From positions 8,729 to 42,745 of the forward strand of contig JANLGA010000007.1 in assembly GCA_024653225.1 (NCBI GenBank): 34,017 nt of DNA, read 5' to 3'. The notes under the pieces are model-generated. The model saw only the letters and a program-made list of their open reading frames with translations, ran no database searches and was not told where the DNA came from. Shown piece by piece: positions 2,277-33,807 of the stretch (its first letter is position 1; every line of letters starts with the position of its first letter). This DNA is from Bacillota bacterium (GTDB lineage Bacteria > Bacillota > Sulfobacillia > JABLXB01). A program made the translations under genes and the position numbers.

Positions 2277-2903
2277 TCAGTGCGCCCTCACGATGTCCTT
2301 GATCTTCATGAGCCTCGAAGCGTTGGACCGCTCCATCTCGCTCAGTCTCATCGCGATGCTCTTGACGGATTCCTCGAGCTCGGGGATGAGCACGTATTCG
2401 AGGGCGTTGACTCGACGCCGGGTTTTCTCTATTTCCTCCGAGAGCAGCTCGACCGCCCTCTCTATGCCCGCGAGCTCTATCATCGGCGGCAACACGTCCG
2501 CATAATGGGCCACAGCCTCGTCGAGGTCTTCAGAGGTGCCGGCCAGCCCGTAGCTCATCCAGTTGCCCTCGGTCGAGACCCGAAACTCCGGAACCGGAAC
2601 ATTCATGATGGACCTGGCGCCCGTCTCGACCCTGACGGTCCTGGTGGGAATCATGAACGATTCCTCGAGTATTGCCTCCGAGAGCACCGCCTTGGAGACA
2701 AGGAACGCCCTGTAGGCCGAGGACAGTTTGCGTTCGACGGTCTCCCTCAGGTCTTTGTCCCTGCGGATGAGCCCCAGGAATTCCTTCATCAGCTCGTCTC
2801 GCTTGTCCTTGAGGAGCTTGTGGCCCCTCCTCGCCATCTTCAGGCGGTTCTTCAGTTTCTGGAGCTCCTGCCTGGTGGCGTTGACGGTCGCCCCTATCAT
2901 CAC
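2277..2903 (-). CDS. ntpD: V/A-type ATPase subunit D
   Basis: 208 aa coiled-coil [40 protein letters not shown]..., typical V-ATPase subunit D N-terminus; next to A and B. Confidence 0.95.
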
Positions 2904-4309
2904 GAGTCACTCCCGGCGGCCGTGCTCCCCGCCTTCGCCCCGGAGGGCATGTACTTCGCGACCATTTCGTCGCTGACCCGCTTCAACTCAGTCCTCGGTA
3001 TGAGTGTGAGGAGCTCCCACCCGATGTCGAGCGTCTTCTCGATGGGCCTGTCCTCGTCCTCGCCCTGCTTGACGAATCTCGATTCGAACTCGTCGGCGAA
3101 CTTCAGGAACCTCTTGTCGGACGGGGTGAGCGCCGCTTCGCCCAGCACCACGGCCAACTCTCGCGCCTCCTTGCCGCGGTCGTATGCGTCGGACAGCTGG
3201 TTGAGCACCCCGGCGTGGTCCTCCCGGGTCTTCCCGGGTCCGATGCCCTTGTCCTTGAGCCTCGACAGTGACAGGGAGACGTTCACCGGCGGATAGATGC
3301 CCTTCTTGTGCAGCTCGCGACTCAGGATTATCTGGCCCTCCGTAATGTAGCCCGTGAGGTCGGGAATCGGATGGGTCTTGTCATCTTCGGGCATGGTCAA
3401 GATCGCCATTTGCGTTATCGAGCCCTTCTTCCCCTTGATCCTGCCGGCTCTCTCGTATATCGTCGCGAGGTCGGTGTACATGTACCCGGGATAGCCCCTC
3501 CGCCCCGGCACTTCCTTCCTGGCGGCGGACACCTCTCGCAGGGCCTCGCAATAGTTCGTGATGTCCGTCATGATCACGAGCACGTGCATGTCCTTCTCGA
3601 ATGCCAGGTACTCGGCGCAAGTCAACGCCATCCTCGGGGTCGCCAGCCTCTCGATGACCGGGTCGTTCGCCAGGTTGACGAACATGACGGCCCTGTCAAT
3701 CGCGCCCGTCCTGCGGAAGTCGCTGATGAAGTAGTCGGCTTCCTCGAACGTGATGCCCATCGCGGCGAAGACGACCGCGAATTTCTCTCCCGACCCGCGA
3801 ACCTTCGCCTGCCGTGCGATCTGCGCGGCCATCCGCGGGTGGGGCAATCCCGCCCCGGAGAATATGGGCAGCTTCTGCCCGCGCACGATGGGGTTCAGGC
3901 AGTCTATCGCGGAAATGCCCGTCTGGATGAATTCGGATGGGTAAGCGCGGGCGTACGGGTTGAGCGGGTTTCCGTTTATGTCGAGGCGCTTCTCCGGGAT
4001 GATCCTGGGGCCGTTGTCCTTGGGCCGGCCGAACCCGTCGAACACCCGTCCGAGCATGTCGGGCGACACGGGCAATTCGATCACGCGGCCGAGGAAACGC
4101 ACCTTGCTCCCGGTCACATCCAGTCCCGCCGTCCCCTCGAACAGCTGGACCAGCGCACGACCCGCGTACGCTTCGAGAACCTTCCCCCGTCGAACGCGGC
4201 CGTCGGGCAATTCCACCTCGACCAGTTCGTCGTAATGGATGTTCTCGACGTCCTCCACGAACATCAACGGTCCGGAGATATTCGAAATGGTCCTGTACTC
4301 CTTGAGCAT
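2900..4309 (-). CDS. ntpB: V/A-type ATPase subunit B
   Basis: 469 aa; [78 protein letters not shown]; typical V-type B subunit. Confidence 0.97.
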
Positions 4310-4321
4310 CGGCTCAGCCTC

Positions 4322-6067
4322 CTACCTTGGCATCTCGGCCTTGATGCGGGCCTCGATGTCGCCGAAGTCGTCCAGCCTGTCCTCGGGGATGAACCTGGCC
4401 CTCGCTATCGCCTGCCTGACGGGCAGCTCCAGTATCGCGTCGAGCGGCGCTCCCGCTTCGAGGGCCTTGTCGGCGGTATGGTGGAACAGGAGGATTACCC
4501 TCAGCAGCCGGTACTGCTTCTTCATGGAGCAGTACGTGTCTATCTCGTGGAAGGCGCTCTGGTACAGGAAGTCCTCGCGCAGGGACTTCGCCGTCTCGAG
4601 CGTCATGCGCTGCTTGGGAGAGAGGGCGTCAATCCCGACCAGCCTCACGATCTCGAGGAGTTCGGCCTCCTGCTGCAAGATACTCATGGCCTCTTCCCTC
4701 AGGTCCGGGAAATCGCGCCCGATGTTCTCCTTAAGGTAATCGGCAAGGCGCTCGGCGTACAGCGAGTAGCTGATGAGCCAGTTGATGGCCGGGAAGTGCT
4801 TCCTGGCGGCGAGCCTGTCGTCGAGCCCCCAGAACACCTTGACGATCCTCAGGGTCGCCTGCGTCACCGGCTCCGACAGGTCCCCACCCGGCGGGGACAC
4901 CGCGCCCACCGCGGAGAGGGACCCTTCCCTCCCGTCGCCGCCCAGGCAGATGACGCGCCCGGCCCTCTCATAGAACTCCGAGGCGCGGGACCCGAGGTAG
5001 GCCGGGTAGCCCTCCTCCCCGGGCATCTCCTCCAGGCGACCTGATATCTCTCGCAGCGCCTCGGCCCACCGGGAGGTGGAATCCGCCATCAGCGCCACGG
5101 TATAGCCCATGTCCCGGTAGTACTCCGCTATCGTGATCCCCGTATAGATTGACGCTTCGCGCGCGGCGACCGGCATGTTCGACGTGTTCGCGACGAGAAC
5201 CGTCCTCTCCATCAGCGGCTTGCCCGTGGTGGGGTCGGTGAGTTCCGGAAACTCGATCAACACGTCCGTCATCTCGTTGCCCCGTTCTCCGCACCCGATG
5301 AACACGATGATCTCCGCGTCCGACCACTTAGACAGCTGGTGCTGGATGACCGTCTTTCCGCTGCCGAAGGGACCCGGGATACAGGCCGTCCCCCCCTTCG
5401 CTATGGGGAAGAACGTGTCTATCACGCGCTGACCGGTGACCATTGGGGCGACCGGGGCGAGTTTCTCGCGGTACGGCCGGGCCAGGCGGACGGGCCACCT
5501 CTGCAGCATGGTAACCTCTACGAGACGCCCGTCGCACTCGATCTTCGCGATCACGTCGTCAACGGTGGCCTCCGCCGGAGCGATCTCCTTCAGGACGCCG
5601 GCCGGCACCCCCGGCGGTACCATTACTCGATGTTCGACGATCTCGCTTTCCTGTACCGTGCCTAGCACATCCCCGGCGACCACCCGGTCGCCGACTTTCG
5701 CCTTGGGGACGAACCGCCATTTCTTGGAATGATCGAGGCCGGGGATTTCGATTCCCCTGGCGACATAGTCTCCGGACATGGTCATGATCGCGTCGAGCGG
5801 TCGCTGGATTCCGTCGAATATCGAACGTATCAGGCCGGGGCCCAGCTCCACGCTGAGAGGTTGCCCTGTACTCGTGACCGGCTCGCCGGGCCCGAGTCCG
5901 GAGGTCTCCTCGTATACCTGGATGGACGCCCGATCGCCGCGGAGCTCGATTATCTCGCCGATCAGCCTCTTATGGCCGACCCTCACCACGTCGTACATCT
6001 TCGCGCCGGCCATTCCTTCGGCGACGACCAGGGGCCCGGATATCTTAACGATCCTTCCTTCCGTCAT
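4322..6067 (-). CDS. ntpA: V/A-type ATPase catalytic subunit A
   Basis: 581 aa; Walker A GPFGSGKT, long non-homologous region typical of V-type [46 protein letters not shown]. Confidence 0.98.
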
Positions 6068-6405
6068 CGGTTGCTTCCCTCTTCCTTGAATAAGATGTCA
6101 ACCCCGATGGCCTTTTCCACCTGGGATTTTATCCGTCTCATCCCGAGCCCGGAGTTCCCCCTGTTGTCCGGTATCACGGTTATTACCGGGGAAGGCCTGG
6201 ACTTGATGCTCTTGATGAGCGGCTCGAGCCTCGACGCGTAGGGCTCCGTGACGAACACGACGGAGAATTCGAGTCTCGACGCCTCCTCCAGGGCCTTCTC
6301 CGCTTGCTCCGCGGTGGAAACCGGGAAGACACTCACGCCGAGGGTCTTGAAACCGAGCACCGCATCGCGGTTGCCAATCACCGCCACCCTAGACATAGGT
6401 ATCAC
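6064..6405 (-). CDS. V/A-type ATPase subunit F (E. hirae NtpG equivalent)
   Basis: 113 aa; [25 protein letters not shown]..., [14 protein letters not shown]; position between C and A. GTG at 6405 or ATG at 6396. Confidence 0.92.
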
Positions 6406-7399
6406 GCAGCCTTTCGCGAATGGTCGCGGCGGGCAACCCGTTCACTTTCCCGGTGAGGATGATCCGCAGGTTTCGGATCTCCATCTCCTTGGCCAGGACG
6501 TAGGCTATGACCGGTTCCGGGCCGAAGGGCTTGTGCTTGGCCTTTCGGAGAAACCCGATTACGAAGTTGTCCGCGAGGAGATCGAGCCGGGAACCTTCCT
6601 TGAGACCATCTCCAGCCAGCCCTGCGTACCTGGTGGACCCCAGGGCGTCCACTACCGCCCCGGGCGGTGCTCCATGCAGGCCGAACAGGACGGAGGTGGG
6701 CAACAGGCCGCCCTCGATGAGGCACCGCTCCAGGAACTCCTTGCTCCTGCCCATGCGATTTATCCTCACGAGGCTCCTTATGTTCGTGACGTCTATGAGA
6801 GCAGTCCACACCTGCTCCAGGAACTCGAAACCGCTCGCCCTCGCGATCTCCAGGCCGAGCGCGAACATCCCGGCGTCCACCACCAGGTCAATTGACTGCG
6901 GATCGCCGGTCTTCTCGACGGCTTCCTCGGCCCGCACTATTATCTCGGCATAGTCGGGCGGGAGCTCCCGCAAGTCCCCCTGCGAGATCGCGCGCCTCCC
7001 GATCTCCGGGTCCAGTGCACCGCCCTTCGTGAAAGCGGCCGGGACCGCGGAACCACCGAGGTATTTCTCCTTCAGCAGGACTTTCACGTTGTGAAGGTCG
7101 AGCCGCAACCCCGCCAGGTCGAGGAGCGCGGGGTCGGGACAGAACCTGCGCACGTAGTCGTACACCCTGCCCAGCTCGGCGGAGAGCACGGCCTCGAACC
7201 CCGCCGGCTCCGAAATCGTCCTCAGGGCCTCGGCGTACTCCGTCTCCGACAGGATGCGCAGCGCCTCCTCGGGCGTCGCCGAATCCACCAGTCGATCGAG
7301 CACGGCCCTGTCCAGGAGGCGCGTTTCGAGCACCCGGACCCTCGCCACGGAGTAAGCGTACTCGGTTTCGTCCTTCACTTGGAGCGCTATCGCGGGCAA
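6389..7399 (-). CDS. ntpC: V/A-type ATPase subunit C
   Basis: 336 aa; YAYSVARVRVLETRLLDRAVLDRLVDS..., DLHNVKVLLKEKYLG, NIRSLVRINRMG; operon position. Confidence 0.93.
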   Translation of the reverse strand: MPAIALQVKDETEYAYSVARVRVLETRLLDRAVLDRLVDSATPEEALRILSETEYAEALRTISEPAGFEAVLSAELGRVYDYVRRFCPDPALLDLAGLRLDLHNVKVLLKEKYLGGSAVPAAFTKGGALDPEIGRRAISQGDLRELPPDYAEIIVRAEEAVEKTGDPQSIDLVVDAGMFALGLEIARASGFEFLEQVWTALIDVTNIRSLVRINRMGRSKEFLERCLIEGGLLPTSVLFGLHGAPPGAVVDALGSTRYAGLAGDGLKEGSRLDLLADNFVIGFLRKAKHKPFGPEPVIAYVLAKEMEIRNLRIILTGKVNGLPAATIRERLRDTYV

Positions 7400-7422
7400 T
7401 CAAATCACCCCTGCAAGACGCC

Positions 7423-8022
7423 CTATTCCCCGAACAGCACCGCGGCCACCTCGGGCTCGAGGTCCTCGCGCCTGAGCCTGAGCGCGACGTCGAAAGTGTT
7501 GTTCGACTCGATCTTGCCCTCGACCAGTATGAAGCCGCCAAGCATCGGCCTCGTCTCCTCGGATATCCTGAGGTTGCCCTTCCTCCCGGAGGCCGCCAGG
7601 TCCTCGTTTATGGCCGCGATGAATGATCCCGTCAGCCTTGCCTTGTCTCTCGGAGACAGGATCACCTCTTCGTCGCCCGTCTTCGCGGCCTGGAGGAGCA
7701 TCTTTCGAATGAGGGGCAGGTATTCGCCGTCCTGAATGTCGCGCAGTCTCTCCGCCGCCCGTTCGAAAGCGCTTGCGACCAGTTCCTGCCTGATCTCGAG
7801 ATCCCGCCTCCTGGCGTCCAGCCCCGCGAGCGTGATCAGGCGCCTCGCCTGTTCCTCGGCGGCGGCCTGGGCCCTGCGAACGATTTCCGCCGCCAGGGCC
7901 CGTCCTCTCTCCTCCGCCCGCCGGAGAATCGCCTGCGCCTCCTCGGCGGCATCGGCCTCGATGCGAGCCGCCTCCGCCGCGGAGTCCGCCTCTATCTTGC
8001 CTATGATTGCGTCAAGTCCCAT
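7423..8022 (-). CDS. ntpE: V/A-type ATPase subunit E
   Basis: MGLDAIIGKIEADSAAEAARIEADAAEEAQAIL...; coiled-coil, operon position. ORF track starts at TTG 8037; ATG 8022 with GGGAG upstream is preferred. Confidence 0.9.
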   Translation of the reverse strand: MGLDAIIGKIEADSAAEAARIEADAAEEAQAILRRAEERGRALAAEIVRRAQAAAEEQARRLITLAGLDARRRDLEIRQELVASAFERAAERLRDIQDGEYLPLIRKMLLQAAKTGDEEVILSPRDKARLTGSFIAAINEDLAASGRKGNLRISEETRPMLGGFILVEGKIESNNTFDVALRLRREDLEPEVAAVLFGE

Positions 8023-8037
8023 CAAGGACACTCCCAA

Positions 8038-8649
<612 letters not shown>

Positions 8650-8662
8650 CTACCCGACCAGG

Positions 8663-10669
8663 CTATTCGATGATAACGTACTTGGATTCCCTCTTGAACG
8701 GAGTGAATCCCCTCCCCCCTCCCTCGAAGAACTTGGTGAAGAACTCAACGAACTGAAGGCGCCCGGAGTGGATGAACGCGCCCAGCACGTTGATGACCAG
8801 GTTGAAGGCGTGCCCCCCTACCAGGATGACGGCTCCGATTAGGTAGCCGAGTATCGGTATCATCTTCGCGAGATCGCCGATCTGGTTGATCACGTTGCCG
8901 ATGACCCCCGTGGCGAGCCCCAGTGCAAGCAACCTGGTGTAAGACAGCACGTCGCTGAAGTATCCGACCCCGCCGTACAGCGCGTACAGCCCCACGAACG
9001 GCTTTGCGAGGATGCTCTTCGTGTTCCGGCCCTGGGTCACCACCACCGCCAGCGCCGCGGCCGCGGCCAGCCTGCTGAACAGCGTATAGAGTGAAGCGAA
9101 GATCCCCGCCGATGAAACGGCCATCATCACGAGCGAGGGTATGAGGATGAGCCAGGGCAGTTGGTCGCACAGGGCGTCCCTCGCCGAGCCGGCCCTGATG
9201 CCGGAGACCATCTTGACCAGGATCCCGAACCAGACCTGGACGACTCCCAGGGCGAGCGATACGATCATGAATTTCAACGGCTCGATCATGGGATCGAACA
9301 CGAAGAAGGCCTCGCGGAACCTCCTCAGGAACACCATGCCCTTCGGGGCGAACTCTATGAGGTTGCCGAACCAGCCCCCCGCCATGGCCCCGAAGATGGT
9401 CGTGGAAATCCCACCGTATATCATCAGGACGAAGAACTTGCGCCCGTCCTTGGGCACCCTGTACTTCCTCATCAAGTACCAGAATGCCAACGCCAGCACT
9501 ATCCCGTAAGCCGCGTCCGTGAGCGCAAGTCCGAAGAACACGAAGAAGAAGGGGGCCAGTAGCGGCGTCGGATCCTGCTCGCCGTATTTCGGCCACCCGT
9601 AAATGTTGGTCACGACCTCGAACGGTTGGATCAGCGGGTGGTTCTCCAGCGCGACGGGGACGTCGTCGTCGGGGCCCGGGTCTTCGGCAATTACCTCGAC
9701 GGCTTCCGAGACCGAGCCGAGCCGAGCCTCCACGTCCTTCACCCTGTTCGCCTTGACCCAGCCCTGGACGGCAAAGGCGGCGCCCGTCTCCGCGAACTTC
9801 TCCTTGACCTGCTCCCTGGACCTGATCCCGGACAGGTAGTCGTGCAACACCAGGAGGTCCAGCTTGTGCTTCAGCAACCCGATCCCGCGCTCGGTGATTT
9901 GCTTCTCAAGGACCTCGATTTCGCGCAGCCGGCTCTCGGCATCCGCCAGGATGGAGGCAGGAGTCCCTTCCAAGTCGCCGAACGAAACCCTCGAGACGCC
10001 GTGACGGGCGAACGCCTCGGCGACGTCCCGGTCGCCGGAAAAACAGAAGGCGACGAAACGCGCGGTCCCCGCGGATTCGCCCACCTGCTGAAGGTGAACG
10101 GGTGCACCTCGGAGGTCTTCTTCGAGCAGTGAATACTCTGTGACGCTGCAAGAGGCCGCTATGGCGCACACCCCGGCGCGCTCGCCGAGCTCTCGCAGCG
10201 GCAGGTCCAGTGCGGCCCACCCCCTGAGGGCCGCCACCTGGCTCTCCAGCCTCGCCCTGTCCGCCCTCGCCTGGGTCGCGGCATGCTCGTCCGCCACGCA
10301 CGACTCGTACAGGGGCACCTCGTCGAACCCCTCCAGGATCTCCCGGAGCCGCGAAGCCGGTACCCTCGTTTTCTGCCCGATGAAGCTTTCTATGAGTCCT
10401 TTCCGGGCGGTCTCGAACCGCTCGATGTAGGCGATGCAGTGAGCCACGCGGGACAGTCTCGCATCCGCGCCGTCGGCAGCCTCGTCCGCCTCCGCCGCCG
10501 GCAGCAGGCGGCCCCTGCGGCCGCCGAGCGATGCCGCGTCCTCGGGAGTGAGGCTCTCTCTGAGGTCGGTGACCTGCACACACCCCATGTCCTGGAGCGC
10601 GGACACCACCTCGTTCAAGACGGAGCGGTGACCGACGATGGTCACCTTCTTCATCCTAGCTACCGCCAT
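8663..10669 (-). CDS. ntpI: V/A-type ATPase subunit I (a-subunit)
   Basis: 668 aa; N-terminal cytosolic half then multi-TM half (FFFVFFGLALTDAAYGIVLAL, LSYTRLLALGLATGVIGNVIN, GHAFNLVINVLGAFIHSGRLQFVEFFTKFFEGGGRGFTPF), typical of subunit I. Confidence 0.97.
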   Translation of the reverse strand: MAVARMKKVTIVGHRSVLNEVVSALQDMGCVQVTDLRESLTPEDAASLGGRRGRLLPAAEADEAADGADARLSRVAHCIAYIERFETARKGLIESFIGQKTRVPASRLREILEGFDEVPLYESCVADEHAATQARADRARLESQVAALRGWAALDLPLRELGERAGVCAIAASCSVTEYSLLEEDLRGAPVHLQQVGESAGTARFVAFCFSGDRDVAEAFARHGVSRVSFGDLEGTPASILADAESRLREIEVLEKQITERGIGLLKHKLDLLVLHDYLSGIRSREQVKEKFAETGAAFAVQGWVKANRVKDVEARLGSVSEAVEVIAEDPGPDDDVPVALENHPLIQPFEVVTNIYGWPKYGEQDPTPLLAPFFFVFFGLALTDAAYGIVLALAFWYLMRKYRVPKDGRKFFVLMIYGGISTTIFGAMAGGWFGNLIEFAPKGMVFLRRFREAFFVFDPMIEPLKFMIVSLALGVVQVWFGILVKMVSGIRAGSARDALCDQLPWLILIPSLVMMAVSSAGIFASLYTLFSRLAAAAALAVVVTQGRNTKSILAKPFVGLYALYGGVGYFSDVLSYTRLLALGLATGVIGNVINQIGDLAKMIPILGYLIGAVILVGGHAFNLVINVLGAFIHSGRLQFVEFFTKFFEGGGRGFTPFKRESKYVIIE

Positions 10670-23881: not shown

Positions 23882-26431
23882 TCAGAGCGCGTACCCGAGC
23901 CCCATCGCCCCGCATATCTTCCTGACGAGCTCCAGCTCCTCCTCGAGGTCCGGTGCTTTCTGCACGACCCGCGCGACCTTACCCTTATCGCTGTCAACCT
24001 TCCCCGCGGCTATCTCCCCCAGGGCCGACCACAACTCGGCCCTCTGCGAGATCTCCCGGACCTTCGACCGCAACGGCTCCTTCAGCTCGGACGCCATGAG
24101 GCCGCCCTGTCCGAGGAAGAACATCGCCTGCGCCCGATACAGCCGCATCACGGCCGTCACCGCTATCCCCTCCGGCGGCGAATACTTCCTGAAGCGTTCG
24201 GGAATGGATGCCTTCGCCTTTTCGAGGAGGTCCATGACCTCAAGCGCCCTCGTGAATGCCTGCCGGGCCTCGTCCACGTTCGAGCCCAGCGCCAGGCGCT
24301 TTCCGGTTTCGAGGTACATGCCGGTGAGGACCTCGTACCCTTCGGGCATGAACCTGTTGTTGGATATCGCCACGGCCGTGTGCCTCAGTGCCGCGGAAGA
24401 CTGCCCCGTCTTGAGCAGGACCGCCGCGTAGTGAAGCCTCGTCACCGAGTCGTACGGGTTCAGCCTCACCGCGGTCTCGAGGTTCACAACCGCATCCCTC
24501 ATGAGGTCCTTGTCGCGTCTCTCCTCCGCCGCTTCCTGGAAGTACAGCCCCAGGGTCAGGCGCGCGGACGCGTCGAGTGGGTCGAAAAGGGTGGCCCTCC
24601 GAACGAGGGAGAGAGCGACCTCCCGCTCGCCCTCCTTCCACGCCCCCTCCCCGGCGCTCCGCAGCGATGCGCCGGCCAGGCACGTGGAGGCAACCAGCGC
24701 CGACAGGACGAACGCATACAGGAAGGCCTTGACCGTCCCCCTTCGCGCGAGCACCTCCCGGGCCCTCTCGTAGAGCGCCGGGCCTGACCGCACGCTCACG
24801 GCGTCACCGTCGCCGGTCTCGGCAGCGAGGTCGGTCGCGCCGCCCACCACGCCCATCAGCGTCCACAGTATTGCCGCCACGGCGGGAAGACTGAGGCTGA
24901 AATCGCCGACGCTGTGGAGACCGAGGCAGATTGCGGCCGAACCGGCACCCCAGGCCGACACGCGCAGGCGGTCGTCCGCGAGCCGCAGGGCGCGACGCAT
25001 GTTGCCTAACAGCGACAACCACAGCACACAGTAGGCGGCGAGTCCGACGATGCCGGCGTCCACGAATACCTGCGCCAGGTGGTTGTGAACCAGTTTCGTG
25101 TAGTAGGGAAACGCCTTGTACTTGTGGTACAGCGTCGCCCATCCGCCGCCCCCCGCACCCGTTATGGGGCGACGCAGCCCTATCCTCACGGCGTCCAGGG
25201 TCCAAATGATCCTCTCCTGAACGTTCCTGTCCATCAACACGGTCGAGGACACTCGTTTCAAGGGTCCCGCGGCGATGGCCTTCACGTCGGTGGCGACCCC
25301 AGCGACGGGGAGAATCAGCAGGACGGCGGCCCCCAGTCCGGCGACGACCAGTGCCATGCGCGGAAAGCCGGTGAACCGCGCGCCTGCGGCTGCAGCAGAT
25401 AACTTCGCCCCACGCGCCCGCCCGAGGGCGTCACACGCGGAGACCAGGCAGTTCAGACCCACGGCCCCGCACAGGGGAGCGAGCAACACCCAGCGCCACG
25501 CCGACCCGACATTCATGGGATTCAGGGCCGCGGAGAACTTCGTCGCCGCCGCGATCCCGAGCAGCACACTCGATGCCACGCAACCAATGGCGGAGATCCT
25601 GAAACCCCGAGGTTGACCCCAGGCGAACAACACCGCGGCCACCGGAAGAACCAGCCAGGCACCTCTCGATTGGGTCAAGACGAACGCGGCGAGGAGAAAG
25701 CCCGCGTTGGCGCTCCACGCGAGCCGGATCCCCCAAGCCGCCGGCAGCCCGCCCCAGGAGCCGGGGTTCGAGGGTGGTGACCCGCCCTGCACCAGCGATT
25801 TCACCCACAGGGTGGACGACGCGAAAAAGGCCGCCATCAACACGGAGGCCGCTGTATTGGCATACTGCAGCGTGGAGGCCAACCTGCCTCCCACCCACGC
25901 GCCGGGATACGGGAGGACTCTCGTCGCGGTCGTCAGGCCGAGGGTCGCGACCACCGTGCCGGACAGCGCGACGGCCCCGAGCAGCAGATCGGAACCGCCC
26001 ACCTCGCCGCAACAGTCGTAGACCAGCCACGTCATCCCGAACAGCATCGTGGCAACCAGGGCTTCCACGACCGCCGCCTTGCGGTACACCGCCAGGGGCA
26101 CCGCGAGCCAGTACGCGACCGCCACCGCCAGCGCGGCGACCCCGAGGTGTGTCCCCGGGAACCGTGACACCGCGAAGTCCCGCCCGCGCGCCTGCGCCCG
26201 GACGGACAGGGCCGCGGCACACGATACGAGGACGCACGACGCCAGGCGCTGCTTCTCGAAGTACAGTCCCTGGAAGAACGGTGCCGAGAATATCGTCGCC
26301 GCGAGCACCGCAGCCGGGACCCGGCCGGAACGCGGCCGGAACGCGCGGCTTTCCGATGCGGGGGTCTCCTTCTCTCGACCGTGAGGGGGAGTACCTGTCG
26401 CTCTCATAGTGCCGTCCCGAACAAGGGTCAC
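23882..26431 (-). CDS. O-antigen ligase / Wzy-like polytopic membrane protein with C-terminal TPR-like region
   Basis: 849 aa; many TM segments, TQSRGAWLVLPVA, ITGAGGGGWATLYHKYKAFPYYTKLVHNHLAQVFVDAGIVGLAAY (Wzy_C-type loop), C-terminal helical repeats (AAEERRDKDLMRDAVVNLETAVRLNPYDSVTRLHYAAVLLKTGQ). GTG at 26431 or ATG at 26407. Confidence 0.88.
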   Translation of the reverse strand: MTLVRDGTMRATGTPPHGREKETPASESRAFRPRSGRVPAAVLAATIFSAPFFQGLYFEKQRLASCVLVSCAAALSVRAQARGRDFAVSRFPGTHLGVAALAVAVAYWLAVPLAVYRKAAVVEALVATMLFGMTWLVYDCCGEVGGSDLLLGAVALSGTVVATLGLTTATRVLPYPGAWVGGRLASTLQYANTAASVLMAAFFASSTLWVKSLVQGGSPPSNPGSWGGLPAAWGIRLAWSANAGFLLAAFVLTQSRGAWLVLPVAAVLFAWGQPRGFRISAIGCVASSVLLGIAAATKFSAALNPMNVGSAWRWVLLAPLCGAVGLNCLVSACDALGRARGAKLSAAAAGARFTGFPRMALVVAGLGAAVLLILPVAGVATDVKAIAAGPLKRVSSTVLMDRNVQERIIWTLDAVRIGLRRPITGAGGGGWATLYHKYKAFPYYTKLVHNHLAQVFVDAGIVGLAAYCVLWLSLLGNMRRALRLADDRLRVSAWGAGSAAICLGLHSVGDFSLSLPAVAAILWTLMGVVGGATDLAAETGDGDAVSVRSGPALYERAREVLARRGTVKAFLYAFVLSALVASTCLAGASLRSAGEGAWKEGEREVALSLVRRATLFDPLDASARLTLGLYFQEAAEERRDKDLMRDAVVNLETAVRLNPYDSVTRLHYAAVLLKTGQSSAALRHTAVAISNNRFMPEGYEVLTGMYLETGKRLALGSNVDEARQAFTRALEVMDLLEKAKASIPERFRKYSPPEGIAVTAVMRLYRAQAMFFLGQGGLMASELKEPLRSKVREISQRAELWSALGEIAAGKVDSDKGKVARVVQKAPDLEEELELVRKICGAMGLGYAL

Positions 26432-26449: not shown

Positions 26450-29400
26450 CTACGGGTTCACTTGCCCCATCCACTTCAGCAGAATGCCGCGGAGCCTTTC
26501 TTTCTCGGGGTCCGGTTGGAGATCCGGAACGCGCCCTGGGATCTTCGACCGGATCGGGGCGATATCCTCCACGGGGAATTTCACCGAGAAAGCGGGTGTA
26601 CCGTCCAGGTAGAGCTCCAACTTCACCTCCCCGCCCATCGGCTTGCTGAGCGTCACCGCCCCGTCGCCGGTGCATTGCGTCATTCCGTCCACCACGAGGG
26701 TGGCGCGTCTCCCGGCGAAGCGTTCGCCGTCAACCGTAATGGAAACGTATCTCCCGCCGTCGGGGGCCGCCTGCCCCAATCCCACAGACAGCGGCAACCC
26801 GGGTTCCCGCACGAGCGCGAGCGGAAGCGTCGCCACCAGCCGGTTGGTCGTGGTTTCGACCAGGTGCACCTCGATGAGGTTCTCGTCCTCGCTCTTCGCG
26901 GGGTCCAGCGCCAGCCGCACTTGGAGGGGGTCGCCCTGCTTCAGGAACACCGCGCCTTCCCGGTCCCATGAGACGGAGGCGCTCTTCCTGTATGCGGTGA
27001 TGCTCACCTCGCACTGTGACTCGGCGGGTTCGCCCGACTCGATGTACAGAGCGTAGCTCCCCTGGCGAGGCCCTACCAGGTCCACGACCTCGGGGGAAGT
27101 GCCGTCCGTCGCGGACGACGCCACCTCCGTCCACCCCGCGGAAGGGTCGAACCAGTGGAGATACGCATCCAGGTCGGCGCCCCCATACGAAGGCTCGGAG
27201 ACTCGAATGACCAACCGCTCGACGTCCCGCCCGACCGTGAAGACCTTGCTGAACGTTCCCCGGGCAGGAACAGTCACGGACAATGTCCCCATGGAACCGC
27301 TGTCGGGGAGGGCCACGCTCGGGACGACCTTCAGCCACGAATCCGTCCGGTGGTTCACCACCTGGAAAGCCAGGCCCGCACCGCCGGGGTTTCGTTCCCC
27401 CGCAATCACCCGCCATTCCGGCGGCCACGGCGAAACGGCCAATCCCCGCGCCGTCAACTCGAGCGATATCACGGTCCCCGACTCGCCCTCCCCCATGACC
27501 ACAATCTCCCATGTCCCGGTGCCGGGGTACGCGATGTCCGTGGACCACTCCGAGCGGGGCGCGACGACACCGGACCTGACCCTTTTCCCCTGTTCGCCGA
27601 TGACCCGGATCTCCGCGGCTTCCCAGCCCGTGTTGACCGCCCTGAGCCTCACGGTCGTGGCCCCCGGGAGTACCCGGAAAAACCGGCGGAAGAACTCGCC
27701 GGCCTTCAACTCCGCGCCGGGCTCCAGGACCAGGGTCTCGCCCGGGCCGACCGCACCCGGCTGCACGAACGTGTGCACCAGTCGGGCCAGCGTCCGGCCC
27801 GACTCGGCATCCCGCGCGCGCGTAACTGCCGAGTGCAGCCCGGGACCAGGGCTCCGGTACTCGAAATGGACGGCCCGCTCCCCCACGGGGGGCAGCATCA
27901 GGACGCGTTCCTTCGCCTCGATCCAGTCCGGCGCACCCTCAAACACCAGGTTCACGGGCCTCGCCGAGAAATTGTCCACGAAAAAGCGCACCGACCCGGG
28001 GATCGCGTCCCGCGCGAACAGGCCGCCGACGCGATACCCGTCAGTCTCCTCGCATACCGTAGTGAGCGGGGCATCGTACCCGTCGCGCAGGAGCTCGAAC
28101 GTCCCCCGCGCGTTGACAAGGCCGCCGCCCTGTTCTATTGCCGCGCGGCTCTCCAGCTCGGTCCCCGCCTCCGTCATTGCGCCCAGGATCTCGGCCGGCC
28201 CGGGTCGCAGCCCCGCTTTCCCGCAGGCCTCGATCACCAGGGCGGCGCAGCCCCCCACGTACGCCGCGGACACGCTCGTGCTTTCGGCAAGGGCGTAGCC
28301 GCTCCGCGACACCCAGCTCGGCACCGCGGACGAACCCGCCACCGGAGCCAGGATCCCGGGCGCCGCGCCGCCCGCCGGAGTGGGTCCCACGGCGCTCCTC
28401 GCCCATACCCTTGCCCGGCCCCCATCGTACACGGCGCCCCCCACGGCAACGCCCGAGGCGCCGTCCACCGGGGCCCTGCTCGTCTGGAGACCGGGCCCCC
28501 CGTCTCCCGCCGGAAACACGACGACAGCCCTGTACCGGACCGCCGCGTCATAGACCGACTCTTTCAGCCTATCCACGTCCCCCGGCCGCACGGCCTCCCC
28601 GTGGAGGTCAACGACTATGACACGCGCGCCTCTTTCCCCCGCGTAGGCCAGGGACTCGACGACGGCCTCGACGGAGCAGCGCCCCGACGAATCGCACGCC
28701 TTGAGCGACATCAGCGACGCACCGGGGGCGATCCCGTTCATGCCCTCCGCGGTGCTCCTGGCCGCGATCAGACCCGCGAGGAAGGTGCCCGTCCCCGCCC
28801 CGTCAAACCCGAGCCGGGCCTCGGAACCGTCCGGGGCAATCCGCGCGCACACGAAGTGGACGGCCCCCGCCGGCGCCGCACCGCTCCCGTCCCGGAAACG
28901 GGAAAAACTCCGGGTTTCCCCGTAGATCCCCAGCGGGATCTCGTCCGTGAAGTCCCTGTCCTGGTTCGTGTCCACGTACACCCTGGTGTACACGCCCCTG
29001 CGCACGGGATCCACGATGAGCACGGGGAACGTGTCGCCCGTGGCGCCGTTGCCGTTGAGGTCTTGACGAAGGGCGCCGTCCGGGGGCAGATCCGCCTCCC
29101 GGAGCATGCCGACCCTGAACGTCCCGCTCTGGCTCCTGATGCCGCCGGTCCTGAGCCGTCCAAATCTCGAGTCCACCCATCCGCCCGACGACGGAGCGGG
29201 TTCGCTGCGGACGAGTCCCTCGCTGGTGAAGTCCATCCAATCGGTCAGCTTGGGCAGTCCCCCCGCGGAGGACACCTGGAGGTCGGGGTGACCGGGGTCA
29301 ATCCCCGAGCCCACGACGGCCACGACCACGCCGGTGCCGTCCACGCCCTGTTCGCGCGAGATGTCGCTCGCGCCCGTCTCGAGGCCCGCCCGCGACACCA

Positions 29401-29617
29401 TTTCCGGGAGGTGCGCCTCGATGGGCACCAGCGTGAACCCGGCGGGACCCGTCCTGCCGCCCCGCTGCGTCGCCGCGGCAACGGGCGCCGAGCCGGGCCC
29501 GCCGACGCCCGGGGCGCCGGGCAACAGCACGCCCAGGGTCAAGCACACGACAACCGACAAGCACTTAAGCGACGAGTTCCTGCGCACGGCCCTTCCCTTC
29601 GCGCGGGTGTTCCGCAC
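26450..29617 (-). CDS. Secreted subtilase-fold (S8-like) protein, catalytic residues degenerate
   Basis: 1055 aa, GTG start, signal-peptide-like N-terminus; GTGVVVAVVGSGIDPGHPDL (Asp region), GAGTGTFLAGLIAA (His region), VVVFPAGDGG (Asn region), ESTSVSAAYVGGCAALV (Ser region) recognisable as the four subtilase blocks. Confidence 0.85.
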   Translation of the reverse strand: MRNTRAKGRAVRRNSSLKCLSVVVCLTLGVLLPGAPGVGGPGSAPVAAATQRGGRTGPAGFTLVPIEAHLPEMVSRAGLETGASDISREQGVDGTGVVVAVVGSGIDPGHPDLQVSSAGGLPKLTDWMDFTSEGLVRSEPAPSSGGWVDSRFGRLRTGGIRSQSGTFRVGMLREADLPPDGALRQDLNGNGATGDTFPVLIVDPVRRGVYTRVYVDTNQDRDFTDEIPLGIYGETRSFSRFRDGSGAAPAGAVHFVCARIAPDGSEARLGFDGAGTGTFLAGLIAARSTAEGMNGIAPGASLMSLKACDSSGRCSVEAVVESLAYAGERGARVIVVDLHGEAVRPGDVDRLKESVYDAAVRYRAVVVFPAGDGGPGLQTSRAPVDGASGVAVGGAVYDGGRARVWARSAVGPTPAGGAAPGILAPVAGSSAVPSWVSRSGYALAESTSVSAAYVGGCAALVIEACGKAGLRPGPAEILGAMTEAGTELESRAAIEQGGGLVNARGTFELLRDGYDAPLTTVCEETDGYRVGGLFARDAIPGSVRFFVDNFSARPVNLVFEGAPDWIEAKERVLMLPPVGERAVHFEYRSPGPGLHSAVTRARDAESGRTLARLVHTFVQPGAVGPGETLVLEPGAELKAGEFFRRFFRVLPGATTVRLRAVNTGWEAAEIRVIGEQGKRVRSGVVAPRSEWSTDIAYPGTGTWEIVVMGEGESGTVISLELTARGLAVSPWPPEWRVIAGERNPGGAGLAFQVVNHRTDSWLKVVPSVALPDSGSMGTLSVTVPARGTFSKVFTVGRDVERLVIRVSEPSYGGADLDAYLHWFDPSAGWTEVASSATDGTSPEVVDLVGPRQGSYALYIESGEPAESQCEVSITAYRKSASVSWDREGAVFLKQGDPLQVRLALDPAKSEDENLIEVHLVETTTNRLVATLPLALVREPGLPLSVGLGQAAPDGGRYVSITVDGERFAGRRATLVVDGMTQCTGDGAVTLSKPMGGEVKLELYLDGTPAFSVKFPVEDIAPIRSKIPGRVPDLQPDPEKERLRGILLKWMGQVNP

Positions 29618-29620
29618 CCC

Positions 29621-30937
29621 TCACGGCCCCGCGATGCTGAAGAACTGCATGAACAAGATGTTGCCGTCCGCGTCCACGGCGCCCTGGAAGAAGTCGCCCC
29701 GCTTCACTCCCTCCAGGCCTGCGAGGACGCCCGACGCGTACAGGACGCTCTCCTCGGCCACCTTGAATGACAAGGTCCCCCCGCCGGTGACGCGCCCCAC
29801 GATGACCGACTTCTCCGGATACACTTCTATGACCTTCCCGCTCACGTTCATGCGGAACACACCGAGCATGCGGACGCACCCGGAGGCAGAAGAATAGACC
29901 ACGTACACCCGGTCACCCACATGGACAGAGTTGAGGTCCGACAGGTTCCCCTGGACGTACACCGTGGCACTCGCGGGAACCGGGACCGCCTTCGCGACGC
30001 CGTTCCTGTCCACGTACTTCAACACCCCGGATCCGGCGTCGGCGGTCTCGACGATACCCACGTCGTCGGCATACCACGCCGCCACGACGGTCCGCCGCCC
30101 CCCGCGCCCGTTGACGACGAACACCTCGTCGAGCGGCTTCAGGTCGTCCACGACGCTCGGGGCGCCGTTCCTGAACACGGCAGCACCGGCAGGGATGACG
30201 ACGCGCATGTCCCCGATCGCGGTGTCCAGGAAGATCGCGCGCTCCGCCGGGTCCACGAGGCTGACGACCCCGTGAAGGTCCCCCGCGAGGCCCCATGTGC
30301 CGGCCGCCCTCCAGATGAGGGCGCATGCCTCCGCGAGCGTCACCGGGTCAGTCAGCCTCAGGTCACCATCGGGGTCGCCGGTCAACCAACCGAGCGACAG
30401 CGCCGCTCTCACGCTCCCGGCGGCCCACGGCGGGCAGGAGGCGGGGGCCTGTTCCCAGACAGATGCCGCTTCACCGGGTGCATCCTCCCTAGCAGGGCTG
30501 AACGCGCGGTCCAGCACCACCACCGCCTCGGCCCGAGTGATCGCCACGTCCGGTCGGAAGAGCCCGTTTCCGCACCCCTTCACCCAGCCCAGCTCGTACG
30601 CCCTGCGGATTGACGGCAGGGCCCAGGAGTCCCGCCCCAGGTCCGTGAAAGGAGACGCCTGCTCCCTGCCTTCAGGCTCCGAGCCCTCCGGCCGCAGGAA
30701 CGCGGCGAGGATGTGGACGAACTGCGCCCGCGTCACGGCCCCGCCGGGCGACAACGGGCCGCCGATCCGGTCGAGGCAACCCCTGGCCCTGACCGCCTCG
30801 ACATACACGTCCGACCACGCGGCGCTGCACGTCCCCGACCACTGCGCCGCCAGCAGAGCGCCACCGGCCAGGACAGCGGCCACGGCGACTGCGATGCTGA
30901 CCCGTAACGATCTCAACGACCCCACCCCGACGGACAA
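29621..30937 (-). CDS. SLH-domain-containing surface protein
   Basis: 438 aa; signal peptide, SLH-like repeats (FTDLGRDSWALPSIRRAYELGWVKGCGNGLFRPDVAITRAEAVVVLDRAF; LGWLTGDPDGDLRLTDPVTLAEACALIWRAA). Start may be further in (GTG/TTG) because TTG 30937 lies next to a terminator hairpin. Confidence 0.85.
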   Translation of the reverse strand: MSVGVGSLRSLRVSIAVAVAAVLAGGALLAAQWSGTCSAAWSDVYVEAVRARGCLDRIGGPLSPGGAVTRAQFVHILAAFLRPEGSEPEGREQASPFTDLGRDSWALPSIRRAYELGWVKGCGNGLFRPDVAITRAEAVVVLDRAFSPAREDAPGEAASVWEQAPASCPPWAAGSVRAALSLGWLTGDPDGDLRLTDPVTLAEACALIWRAAGTWGLAGDLHGVVSLVDPAERAIFLDTAIGDMRVVIPAGAAVFRNGAPSVVDDLKPLDEVFVVNGRGGRRTVVAAWYADDVGIVETADAGSGVLKYVDRNGVAKAVPVPASATVYVQGNLSDLNSVHVGDRVYVVYSSASGCVRMLGVFRMNVSGKVIEVYPEKSVIVGRVTGGGTLSFKVAEESVLYASGVLAGLEGVKRGDFFQGAVDADGNILFMQFFSIAGP

Positions 30938-30941
30938 GAAT

Positions 30942-30970
30942 CGGGGGCAAGCCCCTCGGGCCTGCCCCCG
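30942..30970 (-). terminator. Intrinsic terminator / attenuator between the S-layer gene and the SLH gene
   Basis: CGGGGGCAGGCCC-gag-GGGCTTGCCCCCG (13 bp, one GU) followed by ATTCTTGT on the minus strand. Confidence 0.7.
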
Positions 30971-31004: not shown

Positions 31005-33503
31005 TTACCGCACGACGATCCACTCGAGCACCTTGTCGCCGCCCTTGTCGTAGAAGTCCACCGTCATTCCGGAGACAAGGTCGGACAGCGTGCAGTAGAC
31101 CAGGTCGTCGCCCGAGTAGTCGTAGATCACGGTGTCGTCGTCCACGTGGTACCAGACGCCGTCAATCTTGATCCTATCGTCGGACGCGGCAACCGAGTAG
31201 ACCTCCTTGCCAACCGTGACGCCCGGGTCGCCCTCGATGAGCACGTCGAACGCGCTGATCTTGCCGCCCGTCAGCTTGAAGCTGAGCATGTTGCCGTCGG
31301 CGACGTCAAGCCACTCATCCACGTCGCAGCTGTCGGTCAGGTTGTACGTCTTCGTCGTGCCCTTGACGTCCAGCTTGATGAACTTCCCGTCGGCGTTCTT
31401 CCCGCGCAGGAGGGCCATCGCGTAGTCCTCGATGCCGGTGATGTCCGGGTCAGCTACGACGAGGTACTTGATCTTCCCGTTGTCCTCGTCGAGCTCGTAC
31501 CGGGCCTCGACATCGTTCCTGTCGGCGACGTACGCCTCGAGGTCGGCATACGGGACTATCTTCCAGTCGCTCGAGCTGGTCGCGCTGATCTCGAACACGA
31601 CCGCGCCGGAGGCATAGTACCAGTCGGTGTCGTCGAGCTCGAGCCTGTGCGTGTCGTCGTCGGCGTCCGTGAGCTGCGCCACGTCCGTGATCACCTTCAG
31701 GTCGTCAATCGCGCCGTTCGACTGGAGGCTGAACTTCACGAAGTCGCCCTTCGCGAGGCCCTGGCAGTCGTCGTCGGAGTCCTCGTCAACCTCGTACGAG
31801 GCCTTGGTGCCGTCCGACTTGAACACGTCTATCTTGGTGACGGTCTCGCCCTCGTCAGTAATGGTGCTGTAGGTGCGCGCGACGATTGCGCGGGTGTACG
31901 ACGCGACGGTGACGTCGGAGATGATCGCCCGCACGTAGCCGAAGCCGTCGAGCAGGCAGGTGACCTCCTCGCCACGGACATCGTCCAGGTCGTCGTCACT
32001 GTCGATCGCCTCGAAGCTGTCGGCGTCGCCCGCGTCGGTGGAGAGCAGGATCCTGCCGACCGCCCTGCCGGACCTGTACTTCGTCCCGTCAATGTAGACG
32101 TCCTTCCGGCCCTCTGCCGTCCAGTCGCTGCTGGTCTCGGTCAGCTCGCCCTCGACGGTCTTCGCCCAGACCTCGACCAGGTAGTCCGCGCCGTGCGCGT
32201 CGTCATCGTCGTATATCCACACCAGGTCGTTCTTCTTCAGGTCCTTGAGCTCGCACGGAGCGCCGTTCCTGAGGAAGATTACCGTCTTGGTGTCGTCCTT
32301 GAGGGCGGTGTTGAGCGCGTTGGTCTCGCTCTGCTGGCCCTTGTCGAGGTAGGTTATCTTCTTCGACGTCAGGTTGACCGCCTCGACGATCGCAGGCGTG
32401 GCTTCCTGGGCGAGCTTCGTGAACTTGACGTAGACGACCTCACCGCTGGAGTTCACAGTCATCGAGATGCGATCGTAGGTGACTTCATAGGTCTCATTGT
32501 CAAGATCCTCGAAATCCCCGATGTCGCCGTTCTCGTCTTCGTAAATGGCATCGGATGCCACAGTGAAGATCTTGTCGTTGATCTTGAACTTGGTGTCGCT
32601 GATCTTGGTGGCGGAACGGGCGAACTCGTTGCCGTAGTCCTTGGCCTCGATGTACATCGCCTCGTCGTCGTCGTTGAGGATGTAGTCTACCAGCTTGCCC
32701 CTGAAGCCGGACACGTGATCGGCGTTCACCAGCGTGACGTCAGGCGCAACGACGACCGTCGTGCCGTCCTTCAAGGTCAGCTTGTACTTGCCGGCGACGT
32801 ACTCCCATTCCGTGACGAGCTTCCTCTTGCTGATGCCGCCCTCGAAGCTCTGGTGATAGAGGTCGTTCACCGCATCGGGGTCCTCGTCCTTGAACTTCTC
32901 CTGGTCTTTGTCCCAGTACACCGTCTCCTGGCCCAGCGACTGCTCGGCGAAGAACGCCACATCGCCCCTGGTGGCCGGCTCGGAAGCGTCGAACGTCACG
33001 TTGTCGCTCACGCCGAGATCGGCGGCCTTGACCAGGTACTCGATGGGCCACTCACCGGGAAGGTTATCGTTGTACCCGATGATCCTCAACAGCACCGTGA
33101 GAACCTCGGCGTTGCTGATGTTCGCGCTCGGCTTGAACGTCCCGTCAGGATAGCCCTTCATGTATCCCTGCGACGCCGCGAGGTTGACCCAACCCGTGTA
33201 CCACTGGCCCACCGCGACGTCAGAGAACTTGGACGGGCTATTCTTCAGGATGTCCCCGCTCGACTTCAAGCCCGCAACGATGCACGCGATCTTGGCGAAC
33301 TCCGCACGGGTGATGTTGTTGTCGGGCTTGAACGTCCCGTCAGGATACCCGGCGAGAACACCGAGAGCCGCGAGCTTCGCGATCTTGTTCTTCGCGGGGT
33401 GATTGGCGGTGTCGCTGAACGCGGCACCCGCGACGCCCGTAAACCCTGCGATGATCATGGAGACCACGAGCAAGGTCACGAGTGTCTTCCTGAGTTTCAT
33501 CAT
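31005..33503 (-). CDS. S-layer protein with N-terminal SLH domains
   Basis: 832 aa; signal peptide MMKLRKTLVTLLVVSMIIAGFTGVAGAA, SLH repeats FSDTANHPAKNKIAKLAALGVLAGYPDGTFKPDNNITRAEFAKI and KFSDVAVGQWYTGWVNLAASQGYMKGYPDGTFKPSANISNAEVLTVLL; GGGGAGG RBS. Confidence 0.94.
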   Translation of the reverse strand: MMKLRKTLVTLLVVSMIIAGFTGVAGAAFSDTANHPAKNKIAKLAALGVLAGYPDGTFKPDNNITRAEFAKIACIVAGLKSSGDILKNSPSKFSDVAVGQWYTGWVNLAASQGYMKGYPDGTFKPSANISNAEVLTVLLRIIGYNDNLPGEWPIEYLVKAADLGVSDNVTFDASEPATRGDVAFFAEQSLGQETVYWDKDQEKFKDEDPDAVNDLYHQSFEGGISKRKLVTEWEYVAGKYKLTLKDGTTVVVAPDVTLVNADHVSGFRGKLVDYILNDDDEAMYIEAKDYGNEFARSATKISDTKFKINDKIFTVASDAIYEDENGDIGDFEDLDNETYEVTYDRISMTVNSSGEVVYVKFTKLAQEATPAIVEAVNLTSKKITYLDKGQQSETNALNTALKDDTKTVIFLRNGAPCELKDLKKNDLVWIYDDDDAHGADYLVEVWAKTVEGELTETSSDWTAEGRKDVYIDGTKYRSGRAVGRILLSTDAGDADSFEAIDSDDDLDDVRGEEVTCLLDGFGYVRAIISDVTVASYTRAIVARTYSTITDEGETVTKIDVFKSDGTKASYEVDEDSDDDCQGLAKGDFVKFSLQSNGAIDDLKVITDVAQLTDADDDTHRLELDDTDWYYASGAVVFEISATSSSDWKIVPYADLEAYVADRNDVEARYELDEDNGKIKYLVVADPDITGIEDYAMALLRGKNADGKFIKLDVKGTTKTYNLTDSCDVDEWLDVADGNMLSFKLTGGKISAFDVLIEGDPGVTVGKEVYSVAASDDRIKIDGVWYHVDDDTVIYDYSGDDLVYCTLSDLVSGMTVDFYDKGGDKVLEWIVVR

Positions 33504-33778: not shown

Positions 33779-33807
33779 ATTGTACCAGACAAACCTAATA
33801 CAGTCAA
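33779..33807 (-). promoter_or_regulatory. Sigma-A promoter for the S-layer gene
   Basis: Minus strand TTGACT-N17-TACAAT; about 270 nt upstream of the S-layer ATG. Confidence 0.8.

Follow-up and report, generated by a model that had tools for sequence, protein, structure and literature searches.

Does a bacterial gene whose product looks like a subtilase, with three of its four catalytic positions substituted, encode a non-catalytic protein, a cryptic enzyme, or a decaying copy? The question is raised by a 1055-aa open reading frame at 26450–29617 on the minus strand of the 34,017-nucleotide stretch of Bacillota DNA analyzed here (hereafter the window). The original prediction held that all four subtilase blocks are recognizable, that Asp, His and the oxyanion Asn are lost and Ser is kept, and that the fold is retained as a non-catalytic surface protein. 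It named a Peptidase_S8 profile search, structure prediction with superposition, and an orthologue search as checks, and it took orthologues with intact D/H/S as the mark of a one-off mutation.

Catalytic positions and fold of the window protein

The gene starts with a GTG located 3 bases past the stop of the adjoining upstream gene (SLH438), has no internal stop over its 1055 aa, and encodes a putative signal peptide at about aa 1–50, as read by eye. The product matches PF00082 (Peptidase_S8) over residues 94–465 with 61.5 bits (cut-off 21.8), and its orthologues also clear that cut-off (64–78 bits). In a phmmer search of solved structures, subtilisin Carlsberg and others line up with the product at all four blocks (Asp, His, Asn and Ser). 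The block alignment and the PF00082 score indicate that the substitutions sit in a true subtilase frame rather than arising by chance, and the four blocks are thus recognizable, as originally proposed.

Within this frame, the catalytic Asp position is occupied by Gly (G103, in VAVVGSGIDPGHPDL; 29309–29311, on the minus strand like all residues of this gene), which agrees with the prediction to the base. The catalytic His position is Thr (T276, in GTGTFLAGLIAA; 28790–28792) and the second His of the same block is Phe (F279, i.e. GTH to GTF; 28781–28783), while the oxyanion-hole Asn position is Asp (D372, in VVVFPAGDGG; 28502–28504), all as anticipated. A further acidic residue, D337 (28607–28609), stands at a conserved Ser position, which is equivalent to subtilisin Ser125 by motif position. 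The catalytic Ser is present (S448, in STSVSAAYVGG; 28274–28276), with loss of the Gly that precedes it (STS for GTS). At the Asp-His-Ser triad and oxyanion Asn of an active S8 peptidase, the window protein therefore has G, T, S, and D.

No I9-type prodomain is detected in the pseudo-forms or in eight intact relatives, so the idea that this domain was lost alongside catalysis is rejected. That idea is also undercut by intact relatives with equally short N-termini, and by the fact that the very long N-termini of intact relatives represent SLH fusions.

An AlphaFold2 model based on 46 sequences has a pLDDT of 89 and a pTM of 0.88. Its best solved match in Foldseek is TPPII (E 5e-39), and the TM between its catalytic-domain part and subtilisin BL is 0.87, normalized to the subtilisin BL chain. 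The predicted structure thus points to retention of a subtilisin-like fold, and the superposition comes out as the original prediction expected. The family profile also ranks TPPII (3lxu) first, at 267 bits, with the Asp block and profile positions 205–640 matched, and this match runs colinearly from the Asp block through the core and on for about 200 residues. The window protein is TPPII-like in both its long Asp-His insert (aa 114–268; 28814–29278, minus strand) and its colinear downstream region, which is the first part of a beta-rich C-terminal region (aa 516–1055; 26453–28072, minus strand). The positions that we take to be the double Glu of TPPII, a motif that anchors the N-terminus of the substrate, oppose other residues of the bacterial profile in the 3lxu alignment. 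Two motifs in the insert, DLNGNG and DTNQDRDFTDE, resemble calcium-binding loops, a function that we infer from their residues.

Losses across the order and intact relatives in the class

The draft genome of the host comprises 1.86 Mb in 128 contigs and is 91% complete. Its family in our collection consists of the host and two other genomes, G001 (contig JAHDPS010000079.1, from the metagenome bin Bacillota bacterium isolate SM1-B18.1) and G002, and the same three genomes make up the whole order in that collection, with three genera. Both sister genomes carry an orthologue of the pseudo-subtilase, with 42–45% identity among the three proteins, and the losses are common to all of them: Asp is replaced by Gly in each, His by Thr, Thr, and Ala, and the oxyanion Asn by Asp in each. 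Phe at position 279 and Asp at position 337 are also found in all three. By contrast, the catalytic Ser position differs, i.e. Ser in the host, Ala in G002, and Arg in G001. The retention of Ser claimed for the window protein is thus correct for that protein and fails as a family feature; given the Ala and Arg of the orthologues, Ser448 appears to be incidental, and a cryptic Ser-dependent activity is a poor candidate for the conserved function.

As a control group, we used the 66 of 154 genomes of the class with a homologue at E <= 1e-20; a total of 66 loci were read from 65 genomes (one gave two), and these cover 28 families besides that of the host. Outside the order, Asp, His, and Ser are intact at every readable site of these loci. 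Specifically, the positions of G103, T276, and D372 are invariably Asp, His, and Asn, respectively, in 43 of 43 intact relatives (for Asn, in alignment A2), and the position of D337 is Ser in 39 of 43. Of the columns with at least 80% conservation in the 43 intact relatives (129 in total), the three pseudo-forms all differ in 12, among them Asp, His, and Asn (hypergeometric P = 6e-4). A partial copy at a contig end (L106, genome G148, family f23) reads AAGDGG, with Asp at the oxyanion Asn and with both Asp and His intact; its contig stops ahead of the Ser block.

The tree groups the three order members with full support (100/100), and the stem leading to them has 0.98 changes per column; a single episode of loss is thus enough to explain the shared substitutions. 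Intact D/H/S orthologues do exist, in other families only, and the reading of them as the mark of a one-off mutation fails; judged from these sequences, they would instead mark a single ancestral inactivation that was afterwards kept. A one-off mutation or assembly error is rejected by the orthologues with the same losses in two other genera.

An intact copy of the SLH-coupled subtilase was not found in the three order genomes, each of which has one typical S8 protein, unlinked and of 403–405 aa. The host genome also has a second divergent subtilase, distinct from the window gene (L043; G000:C113, 1011–2282, plus strand; 423 aa, PF00082 41.5 bits), which keeps Asp (AILDQA), His (SMHGPA), and Ser (GGLSWAVPYVAG), and in which the AAGN oxyanion block is not recognizable (VFVASCSMPET).

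The three ORFs of the order are intact at 1055–1057 aa, with about 43% identity, and divergence between members is 32–36% at second codon positions vs 60–66% at fourfold sites. This difference among codon positions points to purifying selection on the pseudo-subtilase, and together with the stop-free frame and the uninterrupted ORFs of the two orthologues it upholds the view that the gene is not a decayed pseudogene. The pseudo-subtilase and its neighbor genes diverge at equal rates.

Constraint is also distributed differently along the protein. In the pseudo clade, the Asp-His insert is the best-conserved region, with 61–62% identity vs 50–54% for the core, i.e. an insert/core ratio of 1.14–1.22. 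In 593 intact pairs, which were chosen at similar core divergence and are not mutually independent, this ratio has a mean of 0.78 (sd 0.13) and a maximum of 1.11. These values suggest a shift of constraint away from the catalytic core and onto the Asp-His insert, for which the evidence is strong but unreplicated, since the comparison uses non-independent pairs and the order represents a single event with three sequences.

Gene order and coupling to an SLH anchor

Directly upstream of the pseudo-subtilase lies SLH438 (29621–30937, minus strand), a wall-anchor protein with three SLH motifs in its model and tandem small beta-barrels; this model (pLDDT 84) matches solved SLH wall-polysaccharide-binding domains. 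A profile search finds no SLH motifs in the pseudo-subtilase itself, and its place in an SLH-anchored surface system comes through this partner. The next gene upstream, SLH832 (31005–33503, minus strand), encodes an acidic SLH protein that is probably an S-layer protein and is found at the same place in all three order genomes, so that the order SLH832–SLH438–pseudo-subtilase is common to the host and its two relatives. A consensus scan alone places a G+C-rich stem-loop of 13 pairs between SLH832 and SLH438 (30942–30970, minus strand) and an extended -10 promoter-like site (10/12) upstream of SLH832 (33779–33807, minus strand). With these two elements, SLH832 may be strongly transcribed, and fewer transcripts may read through into SLH438 and the pseudo-subtilase. 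An Rfam search of the locus gives no match.

Past the pseudo-subtilase, the order in the host and G002 is Wzy_C/TPR–FSA–Rho. The first of these, the next gene in the run (23882–26431, minus strand), encodes a Wzy_C/O-antigen-ligase-like membrane protein with a TPR region, and is seen beside the subtilase in these two genomes only; the G001 contig ends 1.1 kb beyond the subtilase, and the partial ORF located there is not Wzy-like. Other genomes of the class encode homologues of the Wzy_C/TPR protein away from this locus, and a role in S-layer or wall glycosylation is possible. Elsewhere in the window, V/A-type ATP synthase genes (catalytic, regulatory, and I subunits) occupy 2900–10669 on the minus strand, and UPRTase, PrmC, RF-1, and DUF1385 genes lie between these and Rho.

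The same arrangement is found around the intact enzymes. A detailed comparison of six genomes of the class places SLH438 directly upstream of the subtilase in each, and FSA (usually with Rho) downstream in five. Because the order SLH438–subtilase–FSA–Rho is common to intact relatives, the pseudo-subtilase is orthologous by position to the intact enzyme. Among the 58 loci with readable upstream sequence, a homologue of SLH438 is directly upstream on the same strand in 38 and is fused into the subtilase ORF in 19, i.e. it is adjacent or fused in 57, with one locus showing neither. The fused ORFs, all with an intact subtilase (e.g. L010, L014, L020, L085, and L114), have about 940–1760 aa as read, several of them being cut by the end of the locus or contig. 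Fusion is a classical sign that two products work together; since all of these fusions belong to intact lineages, a physical pairing of SLH438 with the subtilase in the pseudo clade is putative.

Interpretation and known systems

Fold retention as a non-catalytic surface protein, the central claim of the original prediction, is strongly supported by the order-wide losses, the AlphaFold2 fold, and the coupling to an SLH anchor gene. The explanation that we favor, and consider quite likely, is that a secreted TPPII-like subtilase lost catalysis once, in a single episode in the ancestor of the order, and has been kept as a non-catalytic binder or scaffold. Its product would be secreted and then tethered at the cell wall or S-layer by SLH438, and is predicted to have no proteolytic activity; its present role is probably to bind or hold a target instead of digesting it. 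The candidate binding surfaces are the Asp-His insert and the old cleft, which would carry two conserved acidic residues (D337 and D372) where Ser125 and Asn155 were, and the ligand is perhaps a basic peptide, a cation, or an S-layer subunit. A broader reading, which we hold tentatively and at slightly less than even confidence, is that, in the whole order, the sole SLH-coupled surface protease of the TPPII-like type has become a part of the wall or S-layer with a structural or receptor role, with the cleft remade acidic and constraint moved to the Asp-His insert, and with relatives in the class keeping an active wall-tethered protease at the same locus.

Other explanations have to be weighed against the favored binder or scaffold. 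Some residual or altered catalysis could persist if Ser448 were used through substrate-assisted catalysis or with an unrecognized base, giving a very slow or specific protease that perhaps acts only on itself or on SLH438. Engineered subtilisins without His64 do keep weak substrate-assisted activity, and the Ser is present in the window protein; however, Asp, His, and the oxyanion Asn are lost together, the Gly before Ser448 is gone as well, and a conserved family function cannot need a Ser that is Ala and Arg in the orthologues. We regard both forms of this explanation as very improbable. Gene decay, or an error in the sequencing or assembly of a single draft genome, receives almost no credence from us: the fragmented and incomplete state of the host assembly would allow it, but it is refuted for the order as a whole by losses common to three separately assembled genera, by three intact ORFs, by the conserved gene order, and by second codon positions that are far better conserved than fourfold sites.

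The protein could also be a sensor or regulator, passing on a signal after binding a small ligand or partner protease, in the manner of CspC and CspA. Subtilase pseudoproteases with such roles provide a precedent (PMC6636752), and the acidic residues newly conserved at the former active site would suit this role, but the adjoining genes encode no active partner protease and the sole typical S8 protease of each genome is unlinked. The protein is also no member of the CspC/CspA germination pseudoproteases, with a score of 19 bits against the NCBIfam CspC cut-off of 675. Overall, we find a sensor or regulator unlikely, while giving it more weight than residual catalysis.

Among known systems, TPPII (PDB 3lxu) is the best solved relative of the window protein by both sequence profile and fold, and it shares the long Asp-His insert. 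However, TPPII is a cytosolic, active exopeptidase, whereas the window protein has a putative signal peptide and an SLH anchor partner, and lacks Asp, His, and the oxyanion Asn. Closer in context are the intact SLH-linked TPPII-like subtilases of the class (G020, G023, and about 60 others), which share the locus, the domain order, and the SLH438 partner, with 23–33% identity to the pseudo-form across the aligned region; these differ in keeping Asp, His, and Ser where readable, and in having the SLH anchor fused in 19 loci.

Pseudoproteases of the subtilase family are already established in CspC, CspA, and PIMMS2, and a 2008 survey found 42 inactive proteins, subtilases among them, in 966 serine protease homologues from 91 genomes (PMC2605481). 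CspC and CspA of Clostridioides difficile show that, in Bacillota, a subtilase fold can lose its catalytic residues in one family and keep them in relatives (PMC6636752). CspC has Thr at the His position, as does the window protein, but it keeps the Asp that is lost here and has Gly in place of Ser; both belong to the spore and carry a prodomain and a jelly-roll insert, and neither has an SLH anchor. PIMMS2 of Plasmodium is subtilisin-like and thought to be a pseudoenzyme, with different triad residues lost among orthologues (PMC5520436), although it is eukaryotic, has a transmembrane domain, and has an architecture unrelated to that of the window protein. The STABLE protease bound to tetrabrachion in Staphylothermus marinus is a subtilisin-family protein on an S-layer stalk (PMC5744192), but it is active and archaeal, and its anchor is unlike SLH438.

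Our literature search found nothing direct on bacterial TPPII-like or SLH-coupled pseudo-subtilases, nor a class-wide coupling or fusion of a TPPII-like subtilase with an SLH anchor. As such, the kind of protein is known, while the pseudoprotease clade, its SLH-coupled architecture, and the shift in constraint appear to be new. The locus offers a natural case of an enzyme turned non-enzyme at a fixed position, with neighbors and anchor partner unchanged and residues lost across a single branch. It allows one to ask what non-catalytic role a wall-tethered protease can have, and whether the intact relatives have such a role too, with the coupling or fusion to SLH438 supplying a concrete partner for testing.
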